This document shows positions 34,233-44,858 of a stretch of DNA of 64,000 nt, in pieces. The position numbers and the translations under genes were made by a program. Source of the DNA: Halobacteriovoraceae bacterium (GTDB lineage: Bacteria; Bdellovibrionota; Bacteriovoracia; Bacteriovoracales; Bacteriovoracaceae); NCBI GenBank assembly GCA_002711995.1, contig PASN01000001.1:83018-147017 (forward strand), given 5' to 3'. A model generated the notes under the pieces. The model was not told the DNA's origin. It did no database searches and saw only the letters and a program-made list of their open reading frames with translations. Each line of letters starts with the position of its first letter. The first letter of the stretch is position 1.

Positions 34233-35791
34233 GGATAATCTTTTATATTAATTTTCTCGAAGTATTTTGTTAGAAAGTTATCAAAATTGTCAGCATCTTG
34301 CCCAACAATTTCTTTTTCCTCAATATGTGACTTTTCAACAAGCTCAAGCCATGCGTCTTCTCTTTCAAGAGGTCTTTTTAAAAGTTCATCCTTATGTTTT
34401 TTAGCAAGCTCAAACATTGCATCAACAAAGGATGTATCCTCATCAATCAAGGAGAGCACTCTTGCTGAGAAAAGCTCTTCAGGATTTTCGACTTTGGCGA
34501 TTTGCTCTTTCACGCCATCTCCATAATATGAAGACAATTTTTCATCGCCGCTTATAAATTTGTCAATGCTCTCGAGCAATTGTTTAGCGGCAGTGTGAAC
34601 CAAAACTTGGTCATCACCGAAGCTCAACTTAGCTTCAGGATTTCTTCCATCTTCAACCACAAGCTTGAAGTTGTTTGTGATTTCATCGCACTCTTTAGAA
34701 GAGATCTCAGGACTTTCATCGAGCATGCAATAAGTTAAAAATGCCTGTAAAAACTTAACCTCTTCCTCATTTATTCCTTCCGCCACAAATGGATTCAGGT
34801 CTAAAAGCCTTACTTCAATATACTCAACCCCGTGGGCGTGCAATGCTTGAAGGGCACTTTCACCTGAGCGAGCGGTACGCTTTGGTCTCAAAGGAGAATA
34901 GAACTCGTTGTCTATTTGCAGTAGGTTCGCATTCAGCTGGCGATACTCATCGCCCACCTTCACGCCAATTTTCTCATAAGGAGCAAAAGGGCGCTTTCTT
35001 GCCGACTCCAACGTTTTTACATATGTGTCGAGCTGATTGTAGCAAACTGAAATATCTTCTTGGGCGGTACTGGTGTAGCCGAGGCCGCCCATTCTTAAAC
35101 TTGTCGCGTACTTCTTTCCATAAGTGTCCTTTCCAAGCTTGTCCAGGGCGTGAATTTTTCCTTCCAAAAACTTTTCATCAACCACAGGTGATGATCCAAA
35201 AAGATACAGTAGAAGCCAGCTATGTCTTCTAAAGTTTCTGATCATTTTGAAGTACATCGCGTTGGTGAACTCTACAAGCTCTACTTCACTTGCGAGTTCT
35301 TGGTGAAGTTTGGAAATCAAGCTTCTGCTTATTGAAAAGTTAAAATGCATTCCTGCGATGGACTGCATGGAGCGTCCATATCTGTATCCCAACCCCATCC
35401 GATAAAGGGTTTTAAGCTTTCCAACATTGGATTCTCCAAAGGAGGCAATTGGGATTTCTTTATCACCGGCCAGGTAGCAAGGCATGCTTGCAGGCCAGAT
35501 ATACTCGCTGTCCATGTGCTTTAAAGCAAAAGCTTGAATATCTGCGATAAAATCTAGAAGTTCTTTATTATTTGTAAAAACCGGAGACACAAACTCCAAA
35601 AGGTTTTCAGCATAGTCAGTTGTAATGTAAGGATGAGTGAGCTTATGTCCTAGTTTTTCGGAGTGCTCTCTTTTCGAGGCGTATTTGTCCTCCCCCACTC
35701 TAAGACCTTCTTTCTCCACACCTTGATGAAACTCAAGAAGGTCATCACTATTTTCTTTGGCCTTGGAAAGAAGATTGTCCGTTATAATCAT
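34229..35791 (-). CDS. gshA: Glutamate-cysteine ligase
   Basis: This 520-residue GshA of the proteobacterial type makes gamma-glutamylcysteine, the first step of glutathione synthesis. Conserved motifs are EKEGLRVGEDKYASK (near 26-40), ENLLEFVSPVF, GMHFNFSIS (about 145-153) and the loop LRMGGLGYTST. Its length equals E. coli GshA (518). gshB is not in the window. It is coupled to the Na/Pi cotransporter gene upstream by a 4-base overlap, suggesting a single operon. Confidence 0.95.
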   Translation of the reverse strand: MIITDNLLSKAKENSDDLLEFHQGVEKEGLRVGEDKYASKREHSEKLGHKLTHPYITTDYAENLLEFVSPVFTNNKELLDFIADIQAFALKHMDSEYIWPASMPCYLAGDKEIPIASFGESNVGKLKTLYRMGLGYRYGRSMQSIAGMHFNFSISRSLISKLHQELASEVELVEFTNAMYFKMIRNFRRHSWLLLYLFGSSPVVDEKFLEGKIHALDKLGKDTYGKKYATSLRMGGLGYTSTAQEDISVCYNQLDTYVKTLESARKRPFAPYEKIGVKVGDEYRQLNANLLQIDNEFYSPLRPKRTARSGESALQALHAHGVEYIEVRLLDLNPFVAEGINEEEVKFLQAFLTYCMLDESPEISSKECDEITNNFKLVVEDGRNPEAKLSFGDDQVLVHTAAKQLLESIDKFISGDEKLSSYYGDGVKEQIAKVENPEELFSARVLSLIDEDTSFVDAMFELAKKHKDELLKRPLEREDAWLELVEKSHIEEKEIVGQDADNFDNFLTKYFEKINIKDYP

Positions 35792-37464
35792 TCTACACTC
35801 TTTATTGGCTTGGGCATTGCCACCGCCTCTGCAACGTTTAGCGCATGTGCCCTTATTTTTCTAAGGGCCACAACCATATCAGAGTAAGTTAGAGCTGATA
35901 ACGGTTCATAGTCACCTTTTGAAACTCTGTCTAAGTGTCTGTCTCGAATGTCATCCGCCCAAACTCTTAATTCCTCAGACTTTTTTATGATTTGATCTGG
36001 GTCCACCCTATCAGCACTGTAAATTCCTTCAGCGCAAATTTGAAAGAAGGACCAAACTTCTTCCATAAACTTTTTATACTCGTCAATTGTCGGTCCAGTT
36101 TGAGGGTCATTCTTAAATCTGGCCTTATAGTTTACGATTCTCTCAAGATAGTCTGCAATTGACTCAAACTCATCCGCAACTTTGATCATGGCCTGAGAAT
36201 GTCTCGATTGATCAGCGGACATTGGTCTTTCCATAACTTTGCACAGGAAGAGAGTCACCTCTTTTTGGATGTTGTCCGTGATTCTTTCGTAATCCCTTGC
36301 CTTGGCAAGCTTCTTAGGATCTTTATCTTTAAGATACTCTTTTGTAACACTGTACATTCTCTCAAGGATATCTTTCATTTTTCTAACTTCAGTATCGGCC
36401 TGAATAATTGCAGTGGCAGGAAGAATATCACTCGACTCTCCAATAAGAACGAGTTTAGGAGTTTCCTTGACAGCTTTGTCTGGAGTGATTCTTTTAACGA
36501 GGTTGGCCAAATGTCCAAGAAAAGGTAGGAACGCAAGGCTGGCCCCGACATTAAATACAGTGTGGGATGCAGCAATGTGAGCAGCGATCTGAGGCTTGGA
36601 TCCATCTTCGGCAACAGTGTCTGCCATTCCAGGTATCAACCACTCAATAAACTCAACATAGATTGGGAATATAGACATCATGAGAACAACGCCTAAAGTA
36701 TTGAAAATTGCGTGTGCTCTTGCTGCTCTTTTAGCATTTACACTAGCTCCAACAGAGGCCAATAGTGCCGTAATAGTCGTTCCAATGTTTTCTCCCATAA
36801 CGAGAGCTGCTGCTGTTGGGAATCCAATAACCCCAGAAGTTGCAAGTGCCATTGTAATCCCAAGCATTGCTGAGGAGGATTGAATAATCATAGTCAACAA
36901 GCAACCAGTGATTACCGAAGCTATATAGCTTGGATAATCGTTGCCTGAGAAGTAGCTAATCATATTTAAGAAGTCTGGATCGTTTCTTAGAGGCTTAAAC
37001 GCCCCACTCATAAACTCTAGGCCGGTAAAGACCATCCCCACGCCAAACAAGGCCTTTCCGGCACTTTGAAACTTTGGGGTTTTCGAAAATAGAGCTGGGA
37101 ATATACCTAAACCGATGAGCAAGAGTCCGTATTTTCCTATTTTAATAGAGATAATCCAGCCGGTTACCGTTGTACCTATGTTCGAGCCAAAGATCACCCC
37201 AATTGCCTGGGTTAGCTGCATTAGTCCCGCGTTTACAAAACCAACAACCATTACCGTGGTAACAGATGAGCTTTGCACAATCATTGTTACGATCATCCCG
37301 ACAACCACGGCCAGGTATCTATTGGAAGTTAGTGAGTTAATTACCTTGGTAATTACATCACTTGCGGCCTGCTGTAGCGCATCTGACATGGTCCTCATTC
37401 CATAGAAGAAGATCCCTAGTCCACCCAAAAGGGTGTAAATTATTTGAAATGTACTCATAGACAT
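35788..37464 (-). CDS. Sodium-dependent phosphate cotransporter (Na/Pi, NptA family)
   Basis: This 558-residue inner-membrane protein has two repeated transporter halves containing the signature VQSSSVTTVMVVGFVNAG (first) and IIQSSSAMLGITMALA (second), each followed by a GSNIGTTVTG or GENIGTTITA loop. Nine or ten transmembrane segments lie in residues 8-330, and a PhoU-like helical cytoplasmic domain (about 355-550) completes it. It imports or exports phosphate with sodium. The start at 37464 is unopposed. The gene is divergent from hemA. Confidence 0.93.
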   Translation of the reverse strand: MSMSTFQIIYTLLGGLGIFFYGMRTMSDALQQAASDVITKVINSLTSNRYLAVVVGMIVTMIVQSSSVTTVMVVGFVNAGLMQLTQAIGVIFGSNIGTTVTGWIISIKIGKYGLLLIGLGIFPALFSKTPKFQSAGKALFGVGMVFTGLEFMSGAFKPLRNDPDFLNMISYFSGNDYPSYIASVITGCLLTMIIQSSSAMLGITMALATSGVIGFPTAAALVMGENIGTTITALLASVGASVNAKRAARAHAIFNTLGVVLMMSIFPIYVEFIEWLIPGMADTVAEDGSKPQIAAHIAASHTVFNVGASLAFLPFLGHLANLVKRITPDKAVKETPKLVLIGESSDILPATAIIQADTEVRKMKDILERMYSVTKEYLKDKDPKKLAKARDYERITDNIQKEVTLFLCKVMERPMSADQSRHSQAMIKVADEFESIADYLERIVNYKARFKNDPQTGPTIDEYKKFMEEVWSFFQICAEGIYSADRVDPDQIIKKSEELRVWADDIRDRHLDRVSKGDYEPLSALTYSDMVVALRKIRAHALNVAEAVAMPKPIKSVE

Positions 37465-37569
37465 CCTTGCTTGACTGTTTTACATAAGTTTGGCGCAATA
37501 TTAACCGAAACTTAAGATTATGTGAAACGCAGAATGCGAAAATGAAAAAATACCACACCGCACAAAAAA

Positions 37570-37583
37570 CTGATATAGATCAG
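37570..37583. promoter_or_regulatory. Fnr/Crp-like dyad upstream of hemA
   Basis: CTGAT-ATAG-ATCAG is an inverted repeat whose core matches the Fnr/Anr/Dnr consensus TTGAT-N4-ATCAA with one mismatch in each half. It sits in the shared region between nptA and hemA, 68 bases before hemA's -10-like element. In other bacteria Fnr-type proteins control heme genes. The binder is not known here. Confidence 0.45.
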
Positions 37584-37650
37584 CAATATTGTGGGGGTTT
37601 TTCTACATTTTCGTGACAAAATCTTAAGTGAATTAAGTAGTATAATCGGC

Positions 37651-38583
37651 ATGTTGAACAATCTGGTACTAAACAATTTTCAAAGCGGGTGGGACACCTC
37701 TCTTTTAGAATGCGACGGCAACTTCATAATGAAGACTTGCCAGAGAACACTGGTGCTTTCTTTTGGCCAAAATCCTTGTAAAGACGAGGAAAACACTGAA
37801 AGACTGCACCTGTCCGGTGAAGATGCTTACTCCTATCTTTTAGAAGTAATCTGCGGGCTCAAAAGCCAGCTAGTTGGTGAAAATGAAATTGTTGGGCAAT
37901 TTAAAACAGCCTACAAGGCATATACCGCCCAAGAGGACATTAATACCAACCTTTTACTTATCATTGAAAAGCTTTTTAGGGACGCCAAAACCATTAGATC
38001 CAAATATCTTTTAGGTCTTAGCCAAAAAACATACGCCTCTATCGCTAGAAAGCAGATCGTTCGCCATAGAAACGCAGAAGAGGTTTTAATTCTGGGCTCA
38101 GGTCAATTGGCAGAAGATCTAATCAACCAATTTAAAAAGAAAGCAAAGGTTTTTGTATGCGCTAGAAACAAAGAGCGCGTTCAAGAGCTTGTTAAAGAGC
38201 ACAATATTGAGTCCATTGACTGGGTCGACCTTGAAGAAGTAAGCAACTTTGCTTTCATCGTTAACTCAATTGGCTTTGACGGAACTCTTTTTGACAATGA
38301 CTTCTTTGAGGCATGGACTGAAAAGTTTGATAACAAGCTATTTATCGACCTTGGCTCCCCTTCTATTTTAGAAACTGAATTTGGAATGGAAGAAGGTGTC
38401 ATGCACTTGCAAGATATTTTTAAAGAAGGCGCAATTCACGAATCACGTAAAAAACAACAAATAAAAAAGGCCCGAGTTGCAATGGAAGGAATAGCGGCCA
38501 GACGTCACAAACTACTTGAGACAAAGCTACAATCCAAAATTCTAAACACTCCGGCAAACAAAACCAAGATCGCTTATGTCTAA
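37651..38583 (+). CDS. hemA: Glutamyl-tRNA reductase (short form)
   Basis: This protein of 310 residues reduces glutamyl-tRNA to glutamate-1-semialdehyde, the first committed step of C5 heme synthesis. Catalytic Cys30 lies in IMKTCQRTLVL, and the motif QLVGENEIVGQFKTAYK and the Rossmann loop LILGSGQLAE follow. It is much shorter than typical HemA (about 420), with reduced N- and C-terminal regions. An in-frame GTG at 37591 would add 20 unconvincing residues. A TATAAT at 37641-37646 is only 4 bases before the ATG, so the message may be almost leaderless. It overlaps hemCD by 8 bases. Confidence 0.88.
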   Translation: MLNNLVLNNFQSGWDTSLLECDGNFIMKTCQRTLVLSFGQNPCKDEENTERLHLSGEDAYSYLLEVICGLKSQLVGENEIVGQFKTAYKAYTAQEDINTNLLLIIEKLFRDAKTIRSKYLLGLSQKTYASIARKQIVRHRNAEEVLILGSGQLAEDLINQFKKKAKVFVCARNKERVQELVKEHNIESIDWVDLEEVSNFAFIVNSIGFDGTLFDNDFFEAWTEKFDNKLFIDLGSPSILETEFGMEEGVMHLQDIFKEGAIHESRKKQQIKKARVAMEGIAARRHKLLETKLQSKILNTPANKTKIAYV

Positions 38584-40084
38584 TTCACAATACCTTATTG
38601 GTACAAGGGGCAGCCTTTTGGCCGTCACTCAATGCACGCTCTTAAAAGAAGAAATAGAGAGCAAAACCAATGCCCGCTTTGATTTGAGAAAGATTAAAAC
38701 AGAGGGTGATCAAAAGACTGAGAAGCCTTTGTGGCAACTTGATGGAAAAGATTTTTTCACTAAAGAGCTGGATGCAGCGCTTTTAAAAGATGAAATAGAC
38801 CTTGTGGTCCACTCATACAAAGACCTAGGCTCTGAAAGACCAGAAGGGCTTAAGCTTGCCGCCGTTGGTAAAAGGCGTTTTGCCCACGATATTTTACTTA
38901 TAAAAAAAGAAAGTGTGCCAAAAATTAAAGACATGAAAGACTTTATTGTAGGCACTAGCTCCCCTAGAAGAATCACAAACATTGAACACTCCCTAAAAGA
39001 GTTTTTGCCACAGGCAAGTGATGAGCTGAAAGTTTCATGCAAAATGCTTAGGGGCAATGTTAATACTAGAATACAAAAGCTTATTGATGGCGACTATGAC
39101 GCAATCGTTTTGGCACTGGCCGGTTTAGAAAGACTTGCCAATAAAGAGGACTCCGCCAAGATTTTAGATGGCCTTTTAAAGGATTTAACTTTCTTTGTTT
39201 TGCCGCAAAAGACTTTTCCTTCTTCAGCATCCCAAGGGGCACTTGCCGTTGAGGTTCATGACCAATCACCAAAACTTAATGAAATTCAGGATGTCTTAAA
39301 CAGTATTCACTGCTCTGAAACAGTTGAGGCTGTGAAACGTGAGAGAAAGGCATTTGTTGGCTATGGCGGCGGTTGCCACTTAGCTGTCGGAATTCATGTT
39401 AAGAAACATAAAGACCTCTTTATCCACATCCACAGAGGACAGCACAAAGATCAAAGAGTTGATAGAGTTGAAATTGAAAACAACCCTCTAGACAGAATAA
39501 AAGGCAAAAAGGCATTTTTTGCACTTGGCAGTTTGGACAAGCTCGTACAACAGACACCTGTGGAAACCAAGATTCCAAGCGATCTCAACCTTTTTGTAAC
39601 TTCTAAATATTGCATAGAGAGTTTAAAGGATGCTAGCTTTTCATCAGTTTGGGCCAGTGGCTCTAGAACTCACAAGAAGCTTGCAAAGGCCGGTTACTGG
39701 GTCAATGGCAGTGCGGATGGATTTGGACATGAGGAAGTAGCTGAGTTGAAAGAGTCCAAGGCGGTGCAAATGATGCTTCAAAGCTCAAATTGGGCCACAC
39801 TCTCTCATTCTGATGCGCAAAGCCCTGTGGGTGATGTGATTGGCTGCTACAAGAGAAACATTAATGAAAGCGTGGACATCAACCTTTCTGATGTTGAAGT
39901 GGTTTACTGGGGAAGCTATTTTCAGTATTGCGAATATGTGAAGCGCTTTCCAGAGGTTAAAACAAAAATCCATGCCTGCGGGCTTGGAAAAACATACGAT
40001 AGTTTTAAAAACAACGGCGTCGAAGTACTGCCTGTTGCTGATATGAAAAGTTTTAAAGACTTAGTCGACACAAAGGAACTTTAA
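38576..40084 (+). CDS. hemC: Porphobilinogen deaminase fused to a short uroporphyrinogen-III synthase-like domain
   Basis: The 502-residue protein has a HemC part (about 1-325): LIGTRGSLLAVTQCTLL, the catalytic Asp83 in VHSYKDLGSE, GTSSPRR, LRGNVNTRIQKL and the dipyrromethane cofactor Cys267 in YGGGCHLAVG. The C-terminal part (about 336-502) starts LFVTSKYCIESLKDASFSSV and resembles HemD, but it is about 165 residues against 250. HemC makes hydroxymethylbilane and HemD closes it. A fusion would channel an unstable intermediate. No stand-alone hemD or hemB is nearby. It sits between hemA and hemL. Confidence 0.85.
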   Translation: MSNSQYLIGTRGSLLAVTQCTLLKEEIESKTNARFDLRKIKTEGDQKTEKPLWQLDGKDFFTKELDAALLKDEIDLVVHSYKDLGSERPEGLKLAAVGKRRFAHDILLIKKESVPKIKDMKDFIVGTSSPRRITNIEHSLKEFLPQASDELKVSCKMLRGNVNTRIQKLIDGDYDAIVLALAGLERLANKEDSAKILDGLLKDLTFFVLPQKTFPSSASQGALAVEVHDQSPKLNEIQDVLNSIHCSETVEAVKRERKAFVGYGGGCHLAVGIHVKKHKDLFIHIHRGQHKDQRVDRVEIENNPLDRIKGKKAFFALGSLDKLVQQTPVETKIPSDLNLFVTSKYCIESLKDASFSSVWASGSRTHKKLAKAGYWVNGSADGFGHEEVAELKESKAVQMMLQSSNWATLSHSDAQSPVGDVIGCYKRNINESVDINLSDVEVVYWGSYFQYCEYVKRFPEVKTKIHACGLGKTYDSFKNNGVEVLPVADMKSFKDLVDTKEL

Positions 40085-41338
40085 ATGAATTCCGAACAAT
40101 TATTTGAGAAGGCAAAAGAATACACCCCTGGTGGCGTGCACTCACCAGTTAGAAGCTTCAAGGGCCTTCACACTACTCCCCGCTTCATGAAAAAGGCCAA
40201 TGGCGCTTTTATCACTGACGAAGAAGACAAAGAGTATATTGATTTCTGCATGAGCTTTGGGCCTTTAATTTTAGGACACAAGAATCAAGCAGTTTTAGAA
40301 AAAGCAAAAGAGGCTATGGAAAATGGCTGGAGTTTTGGAGCCGCAGAGAAATACTCCCTTGAACTTGCTCAGTACATAGTTGATAGAATAGACCATATAG
40401 AAAAGGTTCGTTTCATGAACTCTGGCACCGAGGCCGTTATGACGGCAATACGTCTTGCTAGAGGCGCTACGGGTAAAAATAAAATTCTTAAGTTCAACGG
40501 TTGCTACCATGGCCATATGGATCAAATGCTTATTAAGGCCGGGTCAGGTTTGGCCGGCGAGGCCGAGGCATCTTCCAAAGGCGTGACTCCTTCCACTGCC
40601 GAAGACACTCTTGTATGTGAGCTTGGCGACTTGGAAGAAGTAAAGAACATCTTCAAAAACCACTCAGACATTGCGGCAATTTTTATCGAACCGCTTCCGG
40701 CGAACAACGGACTATTGCCCCAAAGCTTGGAATACCTTAAAGGATTGAGACAAATTTGTGACGAACACAACGCGCTTCTTGTTTTTGACGAAGTGATCTC
40801 AGGCTTTAGAACCTCTTTTGGCGGCATGGCGCAAGACACAGGGATCACCCCGGACATTGTCACTTACGGCAAGGTCATTGGTGGAGGTTTTCCAGTTGGA
40901 GCAGTCGCAGGTAAGAAAGAAGTTATGGACCTACTTGCTCCTGTTGGAGGCGTCTATCAGGCCGGAACACTTAGTGCCAACCCGGTTGCCATGGTGGCAG
41001 GGCTTGCAACACTGAAACAACTAGATGACAACTTCTACGCAAACCTTAAAAAGAATACAGACTCCATCGTTGGCATCTTCAATGAATGGTTTGCTCAATC
41101 AGAATTTAGCGACTACAAAATTGTTCAACAGGCCTCACTTTTCTGGATGGTTCCGGGAGGTGCGCCTAGCAATGCTTCTCAAATACCTGCAAACCTGCTT
41201 GAAAGATTTAACCGTCTTTTTGAAGTTCTTTTAAACAAGGGAATCTACCTTTCCCCCAATGGATATGAGATCGGTTTCGTAAGCGCCGCTCATAACGAGT
41301 CTGTTCAAGAAGAGCTTAAGCAAAGGTTATGGAGCTAG
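40085..41338 (+). CDS. hemL: Glutamate-1-semialdehyde 2,1-aminomutase
   Basis: This 417-residue PLP enzyme converts glutamate-1-semialdehyde to 5-aminolevulinate. The N-terminus EYTPGGVHSPVRSFKG is characteristic. The PLP-binding Lys263 is in VTYGKVIGGGFPVGAVAG, preceded by FDEVISGFRTSFGGM. It immediately follows hemCD. The last 10 bases overlap the histidine kinase gene, so enzyme and sensor are coupled. Confidence 0.96.
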   Translation: MNSEQLFEKAKEYTPGGVHSPVRSFKGLHTTPRFMKKANGAFITDEEDKEYIDFCMSFGPLILGHKNQAVLEKAKEAMENGWSFGAAEKYSLELAQYIVDRIDHIEKVRFMNSGTEAVMTAIRLARGATGKNKILKFNGCYHGHMDQMLIKAGSGLAGEAEASSKGVTPSTAEDTLVCELGDLEEVKNIFKNHSDIAAIFIEPLPANNGLLPQSLEYLKGLRQICDEHNALLVFDEVISGFRTSFGGMAQDTGITPDIVTYGKVIGGGFPVGAVAGKKEVMDLLAPVGGVYQAGTLSANPVAMVAGLATLKQLDDNFYANLKKNTDSIVGIFNEWFAQSEFSDYKIVQQASLFWMVPGGAPSNASQIPANLLERFNRLFEVLLNKGIYLSPNGYEIGFVSAAHNESVQEELKQRLWS

Positions 41339-42249
41339 GTCGAACCAAAAACTGGTTTTATGCACTGCTGGGAATCGCGGTGCTCTTTATCTTTATACTT
41401 GGGGCCTGGTGGCTATATCTGGTTTTCAAACTTTCCAGCGCATTACAGGGTATTGACTCCACAGTTCTTCCAACCAATTTGGCGTTAATGGTTCAGTGGG
41501 AAGGCCTGAGCTTCTTTGGGCTGACACTTGCTCTTGGTGTGGCCTTAGGCTGGGTATTTTGGCAAGACCATAAAAAAACAAGATCTCTTCAAACCTTTTA
41601 CTCCACCCTCACACACGAGTTAAAGACACCTCTTGCGAGCATGAGACTTCAGGCACAGGTTTTGTCAGAGACAATAAATGGACTAAACATTGACCCCAAG
41701 GAGAAAGAAAAGGTCGAACGTTACGGAAAACGACTTCAAGAGGACGTGGTTCGACTTGAGGGAGAGCTTGATAAGCATCTTCAACTCTCAAGAACTTTGC
41801 GCGGGGGAAACCTCGCCCACTCTCCAGTATCTCTTGTTCCTTTAATAGTAAGTGAAAGCAAAAGGTATCCAGAGCTTTCTTTAAAGCTTGAAAACAATAT
41901 TACAACACCTGTGGTTTTGGGTGACCAAACGGCACTTAAAATAATTTTTAAAAACCTCTTTGAAAATACGACTCGCCATCACAAAGGCCAGGAAAGAAAA
42001 GTTAGCATTTTAACACAGGGTGAAAATGGAAACATTCGCCTCAAATATGATGACCATGGTGAAAAGTTTCACGGCAACTTTGAGCAATTGGGGAAACTCT
42101 TTTACAAGCACGACTCTCCTAAGGGTTCAGGCATTGGTCTCTATCTTGTGAAGAAGTTGGTTGAGAGACAAGGTGGACAGTTTGTGATAAAAAATGACCC
42201 CAGATTGATTTTTGAGCTTAAACTAAAAAGAGGCGAAGAACTTGAGTAG
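41329..42249 (+). CDS. Sensor histidine kinase inside the heme operon
   Basis: This 306-residue protein has two transmembrane helices (about 9-35 and 58-78), with a short extracytoplasmic loop of about 22 residues (SSALQGIDSTVLPTNLALM) between them. A HisKA domain follows with the phospho-acceptor His96 in TLTHELKTPLASM. The ATPase domain is somewhat degenerate: N-box Asn209 and Asn213, a poor G1 motif (DDHGEKF), and a good G2, GSGIGLYLVKKL. With such a small loop, the signal is probably intramembrane or cytoplasmic. It overlaps both hemL and the response regulator. Confidence 0.9.
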   Translation: MELGRTKNWFYALLGIAVLFIFILGAWWLYLVFKLSSALQGIDSTVLPTNLALMVQWEGLSFFGLTLALGVALGWVFWQDHKKTRSLQTFYSTLTHELKTPLASMRLQAQVLSETINGLNIDPKEKEKVERYGKRLQEDVVRLEGELDKHLQLSRTLRGGNLAHSPVSLVPLIVSESKRYPELSLKLENNITTPVVLGDQTALKIIFKNLFENTTRHHKGQERKVSILTQGENGNIRLKYDDHGEKFHGNFEQLGKLFYKHDSPKGSGIGLYLVKKLVERQGGQFVIKNDPRLIFELKLKRGEELE

Positions 42250-42964
42250 CTTTAAAAACATTCAGCTTTTAATTGTTGAAGATGAGCCAAATCTTGCGGA
42301 CACTCTCTCTGAGTATCTTGAGTCCAAGGACTTTAATGTGTGCTTGGCCAGAACCGCTCAGCAGGCACGGTCAGCTTTTAACGCTCAAGACTTTCATCCT
42401 CAAGTTGTGCTAATGGATATTGGGCTTCCCGATGGCGATGGGCTTGAGCTTGCAAGAGAGTTTCGCTTCAAAAGAAAGGACTTTGTGCTTCTCTTTCTAT
42501 CAGCTCAAAATGACCCAGAGACCAAATATGAAGGGCTTCAAATGGGTGCCGAAGACTACATTACAAAGCCATTTGATTTAAGAGAGCTTACTCTTAGGCT
42601 GGAAAGAATTCTCTCCAACAGAGCGGATCTTGACACCCTTTCCGAGGAAATCGATCTTGGAGATTTAAAGATTTGGTTTAAAAGATTTGAGCTTCTTGAT
42701 GGGGATAACAATATTGTTTCAATAGGACAAAAAGAGCAGGCCATCTTAAAGCTGCTTTACCAAAATGCAAACCAGGTAGTTTCTCGAGACACTATCATAG
42801 ATGAAGTGTGGGGAGAGAGCAGCTTTCCCTCGAACAGAACGGTAGATAATTACATTGTGAAACTAAGAAAGTGGCTTGAAAGCTCAAAGGAAGATGCCGC
42901 CAAGATTTCAAGCGTAAGAGGCATAGGATATAAATTTGAAATAAAAGGTCCAGGAAATGAATGA
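42242..42964 (+). CDS. OmpR-family response regulator inside the heme operon
   Basis: This 240-residue regulator begins with TTG at 42242, inside the end of the kinase gene (8-base overlap). The receiver has the acidic pocket Glu13-Asp14, phospho-acceptor Asp59 in VVLMDIGLPDGDG and Lys109 in YITKPFD. A winged-helix DNA-binding domain covers about 140-235 (KEQAILKLLYQNANQVVSRD; FPSNRTVDNYIVKLRKWL). It is probably the partner of the upstream kinase. Its target genes are not visible, but its embedding among hem genes suggests it responds to heme or redox. It overlaps hemE by 8 bases. Confidence 0.93.
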   Translation: MSSFKNIQLLIVEDEPNLADTLSEYLESKDFNVCLARTAQQARSAFNAQDFHPQVVLMDIGLPDGDGLELAREFRFKRKDFVLLFLSAQNDPETKYEGLQMGAEDYITKPFDLRELTLRLERILSNRADLDTLSEEIDLGDLKIWFKRFELLDGDNNIVSIGQKEQAILKLLYQNANQVVSRDTIIDEVWGESSFPSNRTVDNYIVKLRKWLESSKEDAAKISSVRGIGYKFEIKGPGNE

Positions 42965-43997
42965 CATTTTTGAAAACAGAAAACAAGTAAACGGGAAAAC
43001 ACAGGTTCCTGTTTGGTTTATGAGACAGGCCGGAAGATATCACGACCACTATCAAAACCTTAAAAAGTCCCATGACTTTATGCAACTGTGTAAAACTCCA
43101 GATCTTGCTTGCGAGACAACAATGGGGCCTATTAGAGAGTTTGACTTTGACGCCGCCATTTTATTCTCAGACCTTCTCTTTCCTCTTGAGCAACTGGGGA
43201 CTGGACTTGTCTATGACCCAGGCCCAAAGCTTAGTCTTAAAATTTCAAACCTGGATGACCTCAAAAGGCTTAAGCAAGACGGCTTCAGCGAAGACTATTA
43301 TAAATTTCAAAAAGACGCCTGCTCTCTTTTAAAGAAGGCCCTTCCTCAGGACAAGACACTTCTTGGTTTTGTCGGAGCTCCTTTTACTCTCTACGCTTAT
43401 GCTGTGGAAGGCGCCCATGCAGGAAGTCTCGTATCCTCAAAAACTGGCCTTTACGATGGACGCTTTGAGCGTTTTTGTGAACTTCTCCTTCCAAATGTTT
43501 TGGACGAAATGAAGATGCAAGCTGAAGGCGGCGCGGATGCGATGTGCATTTTTGACACTGCGGTTGGCGAGCTTACAGTAAAAGACTTCACTAGAATCGT
43601 GCTTCCAAAAATAAAGCACCTTACTTCTGAGTTTAAAAAGCTCTACCCTAATAAAAAGGTTATCTACTACTCTAGAAACACTCATAAAGAACACCTTCGC
43701 GCCATCCAAGACGACAATATTGACGTAATTGGGGTTGATTGGAGACACAACCTTGGAGAGGTTATTAATGAGTTTGGAAAAGACTACTATGTTCAAGGAA
43801 ATTTTGATCCCTGCTGGCTCCACCTTCCATGGGAAAAATGTGAAGAGCTTTTAAAAGAAAACCTTGAAGAGGTTAGAAGAAGCGGAGCTGACATGAGCCG
43901 CTGGATCATGGGTCTAGGACACGGTGTTCTTCAGCACACGCCTCAAGAAAACGTAAAAAATGCTGTTGAATTCATCCACAAAAATTATCACTATTAA
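42957..43997 (+). CDS. hemE: Uroporphyrinogen decarboxylase
   Basis: This 346-residue enzyme decarboxylates uroporphyrinogen III to coproporphyrinogen III. The N-terminal signature PVWFMRQAGRYHDHYQNL contains the substrate-binding Arg pair, and IREFDFDAAILFSDLLFPL follows with the essential Asp. The later MGLGHGVLQHTPQENV includes the conserved His. It is the last gene of the operon and overlaps the regulator by 8 bases. Confidence 0.96.
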   Translation: MNDIFENRKQVNGKTQVPVWFMRQAGRYHDHYQNLKKSHDFMQLCKTPDLACETTMGPIREFDFDAAILFSDLLFPLEQLGTGLVYDPGPKLSLKISNLDDLKRLKQDGFSEDYYKFQKDACSLLKKALPQDKTLLGFVGAPFTLYAYAVEGAHAGSLVSSKTGLYDGRFERFCELLLPNVLDEMKMQAEGGADAMCIFDTAVGELTVKDFTRIVLPKIKHLTSEFKKLYPNKKVIYYSRNTHKEHLRAIQDDNIDVIGVDWRHNLGEVINEFGKDYYVQGNFDPCWLHLPWEKCEELLKENLEEVRRSGADMSRWIMGLGHGVLQHTPQENVKNAVEFIHKNYHY

Positions 43998-44198: not shown

Positions 44199-44858
44199 AT
44201 GATGAAAAGAATAATTTATACACTAAATGCAGGCGCCTTCAACTTAGACCCATTATTTAATGGAACTGATTGGGAAAGGATTAACATCGACTCTATCAGT
44301 CAGGTTGACTACCAGTTCACAAAGGAAAACAAATGTGTGCTTCTGGTATGTGGAAATGACACCCAAAAATTGAAAGACATGTTTTCAACTTTTGAGATTA
44401 CAACCTGCAACCTGCCAACTGCCTTTCTCTTAGGCCATGAGAATCAGGAAATTATTAACTTGTGCTACAACTTCGACTTTAGCAATATCTTCATCAACAC
44501 AGTTGACCATCTACTTTTAAAAACTCACCTTAAGTATACTTTTTCAAACTATGAAATGGTGGTTAGAAACAACGGTCAAAAATGGCTTAAGCACATTGAT
44601 CCAAAAGAATTCACTAAAAAAGAATTTCAAATCATTGAATACATCGCTCAAGCTCCACTTACAGAGCTATCGAGAGAAGACCTTCAAAGCTTTATTTGGG
44701 GACACGGCAAAAAGACCACAAACAAGCTTGATGTGCATATCTGCAATTTGAGAAAGAAGCTTACTGATCAAAGCGTAATCATTCAGACAAATGAGCGTGG
44801 AAAAGTAAGCTTGGGAATCTCAAGAGAGCTATACCTCGACAAAAAAGTCGGAGCTTAG
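44199..44858 (+). CDS. Regulator with a degenerate receiver-like N-terminus and a winged-helix DNA-binding domain
   Basis: This protein of about 219 residues has a C-terminal OmpR/PhoB-type winged helix (about 130-215): FTKKEFQIIEYIAQAPLTEL, then TTNKLDVHICNLRKKLTD and VIIQTNERGKVSL. The N-terminal 110 residues (IIYTLNAGAFNLDPLF...) are not a typical receiver and lack a recognisable Asp pocket, so phosphorylation is unlikely. An in-frame TTG start at 44181 is possible, but the tandem ATG at 44199 and 44202 looks better. The gene converges on the cpaF gene with a 30-base 3' overlap. Confidence 0.82.
   Translation: MMKRIIYTLNAGAFNLDPLFNGTDWERINIDSISQVDYQFTKENKCVLLVCGNDTQKLKDMFSTFEITTCNLPTAFLLGHENQEIINLCYNFDFSNIFINTVDHLLLKTHLKYTFSNYEMVVRNNGQKWLKHIDPKEFTKKEFQIIEYIAQAPLTELSREDLQSFIWGHGKKTTNKLDVHICNLRKKLTDQSVIIQTNERGKVSLGISRELYLDKKVGA

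Follow-up and report, generated by a model that had tools for sequence, protein, structure and literature searches.

Heme control by the HemK/HemR (HemKR) two-component system has so far been worked out in a single spirochete genus, Leptospira. In L. biflexa, phosphate passes from H98 of the kinase to D53 of the regulator, mutants depend on a supply of hemin or ALA, and swapping the periplasmic loop of the kinase did not abolish function (PMC2266917). The same 2008 paper mentioned a linkage between the pair and hem genes in Bdellovibrio bacteriovorus, with the data not shown (PMC2266917). Phosphorylated HemR binds the direct repeat TGACA-N6-TGACA, and its regulon in L. biflexa includes hemA, a heme oxygenase, exbB1/exbD1 and a PhuR-like receptor (PMC11426443). 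When ALA is added, ALA itself or a product of it switches HemK to phosphatase activity by way of T102; the experiments could not tell ALA apart from later products, heme among them (PMC11426443). In a deletion mutant of L. biflexa, hemA was not significantly changed in standard growth, and the hem operon was up under iron limitation (PMC11426443).

The window, by which we mean the whole 64,000-nucleotide stretch of DNA that was analyzed, belongs to an uncultured bacterium of the Bacteriovoracaceae group in the Bdellovibrionota. Within a heme operon it carries a histidine kinase (HK) and a response regulator (RR), and we put a probability of roughly 0.85 on the reading that these are the Bdellovibrionota orthologs of HemK and HemR and form an autoregulatory switch inside that operon. 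The pair resembles the Leptospira system (L. biflexa Hklep/Rrlep and its L. interrogans counterpart) in kinase architecture, short loop, HExxT motif and OmpR/PhoB regulator, as well as in its place between hemL and hemE (L. interrogans), the hem-box at hemA and a heme receptor as target class. Unlike Leptospira, the window operon has neither hemB nor hemN, the first half-site reads CTACA, there is no match to PF01126, and the system is known here from sequence alone. The hem locus of B. bacteriovorus, from the same phylum, likewise links the pair to hem genes but differs from the window operon in the gene content around it. Family f6, which we infer to be Bdellovibrionaceae, showed the same order of pair and hem genes, with hemB divergent in most genomes and hemN after hemE. 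Two further pairs, HrrSA and ChrSA of Corynebacterium, have regulators of the NarL/LuxR type, whereas the window regulator is of the OmpR/PhoB type. What they have in common with the window pair is two-component control of heme homeostasis (PMC7337898).

Table 1. Features of the heme operon and its upstream region (window positions).
Feature	Positions	Strand	Evidence or remark
Putative HemR-type hem-box CTACATTTTCGTGACA	37603..37618	+	CTACA-N6-TGACA; start 48 bases before hemA ATG
Predicted -10 element TAGTATAAT	37638..37646	+	TAGTAT 37638-37643 or TATAAT 37641-37646
hemA, short glutamyl-tRNA reductase	37651..38583	+	GlutR_N 6e-15, Shikimate_DH 2e-10; TIGR01035 below cut-off
hemCD, hydroxymethylbilane synthase fused to presumed uroporphyrinogen-III synthase half	38576..40084	+	TIGR00212 3e-63
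hemL, glutamate-1-semialdehyde aminomutase	40085..41338	+	NF000818 2.6e-158, above cut-off
HemK-type histidine kinase (HK)	41329..42249	+	Pfam HisKA + HATPase_c; two TM helices, short loop
HemR-type OmpR/PhoB response regulator (RR), TTG start	42242..42964	+	Pfam Response_reg + Trans_reg_C
hemE, uroporphyrinogen decarboxylase	42957..43997	+	URO-D 1.6e-84

A sequence-only reading of the window had described hemA, hemCD, hemL, the kinase, the regulator and hemE as lying on one strand and joined by short overlaps or direct abutment. Six open reading frames bore out this arrangement (Table 1), the five junctions being an overlap of 8 bases, a direct abutment (0 bases) and overlaps of 10, 8 and 8 bases, and we infer that the six genes are co-transcribed. 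All six gene names are backed by Pfam and NCBIfam domains (Porphobil_deam for hemCD and the HemL family for hemL). HemA is short at 310 aa and scores 76.8 bits against TIGR01035 (cut-off 209.55); it carries a TCQR motif where TCNR is usual, and in Leptospira its counterpart has no annotation beyond that of a hypothetical protein. The AlphaFold model of HemCD (pLDDT 87.6) matches porphobilinogen deaminase structures in its first half. Because the second half had no match in Pfam, among solved structures or in a Foldseek search of the model, the presumed HemD label is based on position and on similarity to a Leptospira protein annotated as bifunctional. Outside the operon, hemB lies on contig C19 of the genome, and hemN is likewise not among the operon genes. 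Sigma-70-like promoters showed no excess over shuffles in the operon region, and an internal promoter for the kinase was dropped as a candidate, promoter-like sites being no more frequent than in shuffles. Inside the kinase gene there is a terminator-like match (41362-41383), and such matches number near the shuffled expectation. Downstream of hemE, a plus-strand frame (44202-44858) encodes an OmpR-type winged helix without a Pfam receiver domain; among 97 loci compared, this protein was present only in L110, where it is 83% identical.

When relatives were compared, the order hemL-HK-RR-hemE was kept in 36 of the 37 HK-bearing loci retrieved for the family and in each of the 38 retrieved for other families in the phylum (the regulator of L165 being confirmed), and it was found in named Bacteriovoracaceae contigs as well. 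In the other families, hemB is often placed between hemCD and hemL and hemN behind hemE; L. interrogans has the order hemA-hemCD-hemB-hemL-HK-RR-hemE-hemN. Since the arrangement of hem genes and pair is conserved across the phylum, it is not due to chance. The 37th family locus, from genome G040 (L063:4610-7181), has the pair on another contig and divergent from a detached hemA, with CTACA-N6-TGACA between pair and hemA, while hemCD-hemL-hemE remain together elsewhere. A kinase match was found at 1e-10 in 104 of 116 genomes from the same order, and at 1e-20 in 124 of 192 genomes of a phylum sample, one per genome. Among the family genomes, 91 of the 98 with hemL and hemE together have the kinase, as against 1 of the 12 with neither gene, a co-occurrence whose Fisher p of 8e-10 is uncorrected for ancestry and is optimistic given shared ancestry and incomplete assemblies. 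The co-occurrence is not perfect: hemL and hemE occur without the pair in five genomes, spread over three genera. Two more genomes, G098 and G114, are probably explained by contig breaks; conversely, G104 has the pair with hemL and hemE not found. Loci L060, L061 and L169 contain hem genes and lack both kinase and regulator.

The pair is one of many in the window genome, where HisKA has 36 matches. A search of a plasmid collection with the kinase gave as its best matches two L. interrogans records at about 1e-36, from a large replicon that the collection lists as a plasmid, and the next best E-value listed was 5e-10. In a tree of 84 kinases, hem-linked kinases together with Leptospira stood apart from eight other kinases of the window genome with support of 100/100. 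Leptospira was nested within the Bdellovibrionota set, inside a group of 24 supported at 100/99; this nesting, in a tree that holds a single Leptospira sequence and is otherwise made up of Bdellovibrionota, suggests transfer between Bdellovibrionota and Leptospira. The closest kinase is 74% identical; among named contigs, those that come nearest are Bacteriovoracaceae and Halobacteriovoraceae assembled from metagenomes. In the PDB, the RR receiver domain matches 4q7e best, which we take to be the receiver of L. biflexa HemR.

By curated family, the best NCBIfam match of the regulator is PhoB and PhoR is among the best of the kinase, and a Na/Pi cotransporter with a PhoU domain (35788-37464, minus strand) is a conserved divergent neighbor of hemA in the family. 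One could accordingly picture a phosphate-type PhoR/PhoB system that sits among hem genes by chance and mainly serves this cotransporter. We rejected this picture as exceedingly improbable, the scores lying far below the curated cut-offs (148.6 against 296.2 bits for PhoB and 59.1 against 334.2 for PhoR). Loci L060 and L061 retain the cotransporter without the pair, and outside the family the pair stays with the hem genes, where no Na/Pi match was found. The pair thus goes with the hem genes rather than with the phosphate gene.

The stretch between the cotransporter and hemA (37465-37650), proposed earlier as the place to look for feedback, does contain a putative HemR-type site. This box has two mismatches to the Leptospira consensus, and its CTACA first half-site is common to many family members. 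We compared about 400 bases 5' of hemA from 70 kinase-bearing loci, the window and L. interrogans included. A hem-box was present as a perfect match in 41 of the 70, with at most one mismatch in 51 and with at most two in all 70, compared with 0.07%, 1.6% and 18% of dinucleotide-preserving shuffles. Because a tolerance of two mismatches by itself matches 18% of shuffled promoters, the support for the window box comes from its position and from the CTACA-bearing relatives. In a few loci (L068, L059 and L063 among them) the best match is another one, with CTACA-N6-TGACA also present nearer the start codon. A search of the window with the bare motif gave no perfect match and 50 matches with at most two mismatches against 61 expected; it was set aside as uninformative, and position and relatives are therefore needed. 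In the pair-less loci L060, L061 and L169, no site within two mismatches was found before hemA; the site has been lost along with the pair.

The distance from the start of the box to the ATG is about 44-54 bases in many Bacteriovoracaceae. At about 35-36 bases from where the box starts, a TAnnnT element is found again and again, both across the phylum and in L. interrogans. This recurrence places the second half-site over the -35 region, where a site is expected for activators of the PhoB type. From the position of the predicted -10 element (Table 1), the hemA mRNA is probably leaderless or nearly so.

Sites elsewhere in the genome were sought with the family pattern YKACA-N5-R-TGACA, which gave 11 sites against 7 for a reversed control. 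Inspection of the open reading frames left only two that are intergenic and ahead of a gene, the hemA site and C6:305393-305408; most of the others were set aside as lying inside genes. The second site stands 48 bases ahead of a TonB-dependent receptor of 650 aa that falls in the heme/hemoglobin family (TIGR01785 at 3.8e-66, under the cut-off; solved ShuA structure at 1e-27), which adjoins a TonB-like gene. The same pairing of box and heme receptor, at 47-48 bases, occurs in three other genera (L189, L196 and L203). A heme receptor as the predicted second target also speaks against a phosphate system. Ten genomes from other families contain 23 sites of the perfect pattern in total, and in 8 of the 10 these include the hemA site of the fetched locus. 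A ninth genome (G186), whose locus was not fetched, has a site that precedes the kinase by 4.8 kb, which is where hemA should lie, and in G219 and G153 the hemA site is the sole perfect-pattern site in the genome.

Membership in an operon is not in itself proof of a regulatory target, and many family-pattern sites inside genes look like chance, so that the pair might merely travel with the hem genes for convenience of expression and regulate unrelated genes. Three results make such a passenger role very unlikely. The hemA site accompanies the pair and is missing from loci that lack it; in L063, L195 and L198, in which hemA or the pair has been relocated, the site and the hemA link persist all the same; and the genome is almost devoid of other intergenic sites. 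We regard the identification of the pair as an orthologous HemKR, set in its heme operon and equipped with a conserved site and a heme-receptor target, as almost certain.

With regard to other target classes, heme oxygenase (PF01126) was not found in the genome, which is 96% complete, so the repressed target of Leptospira is missing here. Repression of hmuO is one target of the Leptospira regulon and not a defining part of the HemKR protein family. In L204, L208 and L212, representing three genera, a hem-box-like site lies 45-79 bases upstream of the start of a conserved membrane protein of 181 aa. This protein has no significant Pfam or NCBIfam family and is possibly an unknown member of the heme regulon.

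The sequence-only reading had also proposed that the sensor is made together with the C5-pathway enzymes and feeds back on them, and the phylum-wide gene order, the HemKR orthology and the HemR-type site all lend this support. Since the pair is the HemKR counterpart and the same DNA switch stands in front, the operon very probably controls its own output. We consider an activating feedback likely. In such a scheme, kinase-active HemK would phosphorylate HemR at D59, and phospho-HemR would bind the direct repeat over the -35 region and activate the promoter just before hemA, so that the first C5-pathway enzymes, HemK, HemR and HemE would all be produced together. Elsewhere in the genome it would also activate the TonB-dependent heme receptor. 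When a porphyrin-pathway product (ALA or a later metabolite) accumulates, HemK would, by analogy with L. biflexa, sense it through its two TM helices and turn phosphatase through the H96-E-x-x-T100 motif; HemR would then be dephosphorylated, and heme synthesis and uptake would fall together. Because hemA regulation in L. biflexa is not simple, the direction proposed for the window organism, activation, is drawn from the geometry of the site and from the 2008 data.

H96 is present in 77 of 77 kinase orthologs and T100 in 76 of 77 (H98 and T102 in L. biflexa), the phosphoacceptor D59 of the regulator is found in 76 of 76, and K109, R199, D202 and N203 of the regulator are invariant. In the membrane part of the kinase, W27 and W28 (TM1) are kept in 69 of 69 orthologs and E58 (start of TM2) in 77 of 77. 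Hydropathy gives two TM segments, and a model of medium confidence (pLDDT 73) shows helices at 3-40 and from 50 onward with a short turn between them. The cue would thus appear to be read in the membrane part of the kinase. An earlier suggestion from the small extracytoplasmic loop, that the cue is a membrane or cytoplasmic one, agrees with the loop replacement that kept function in L. biflexa (PMC2266917). The invariant membrane residues provide a short list for finding the cue of HemK.

The identity of the cue is a separate matter. Heme itself was the guess of the sequence-only reading. HemK might respond directly to heme or redox state instead of to ALA or an early porphyrin intermediate, an option that concerns the cue only, is compatible with the rest of the explanation and to which we give somewhat less than an even chance. 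This option draws on the L. biflexa work, which could not tell ALA from its later products, heme included (PMC11426443), and on the position of W27-W28 and E58 in or at the membrane portion of HemK, a setting in which an amphipathic porphyrin might exert an effect. Set against it is the domain content of the kinase, in which Pfam recognizes HisKA and HATPase_c only and no ligand-binding domain.

More tentatively, and with the balance slightly against us, we propose that the whole phylum, mostly uncultured and predatory, has heme synthesis and uptake governed jointly by a single, very small HemKR regulon whose membrane sensor is a dedicated one (marked by the invariant WW pair and Glu), and that operon, pair and box moved as a unit between Bdellovibrionota and Leptospira. 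The same pair, site and two target classes are predicted across Bdellovibrionota, where many natural replacements and losses are available for testing the mechanism. For predators, the site at the heme receptor offers a way to test how making heme is balanced against taking it from prey. In genus g8 of the family (L064, L065 and L066, from G007, G085 and G092), the kinase belongs to another branch of the HemK clade, and the site reads CGACA-N6-TGACA, which looks as if the pair had been replaced.
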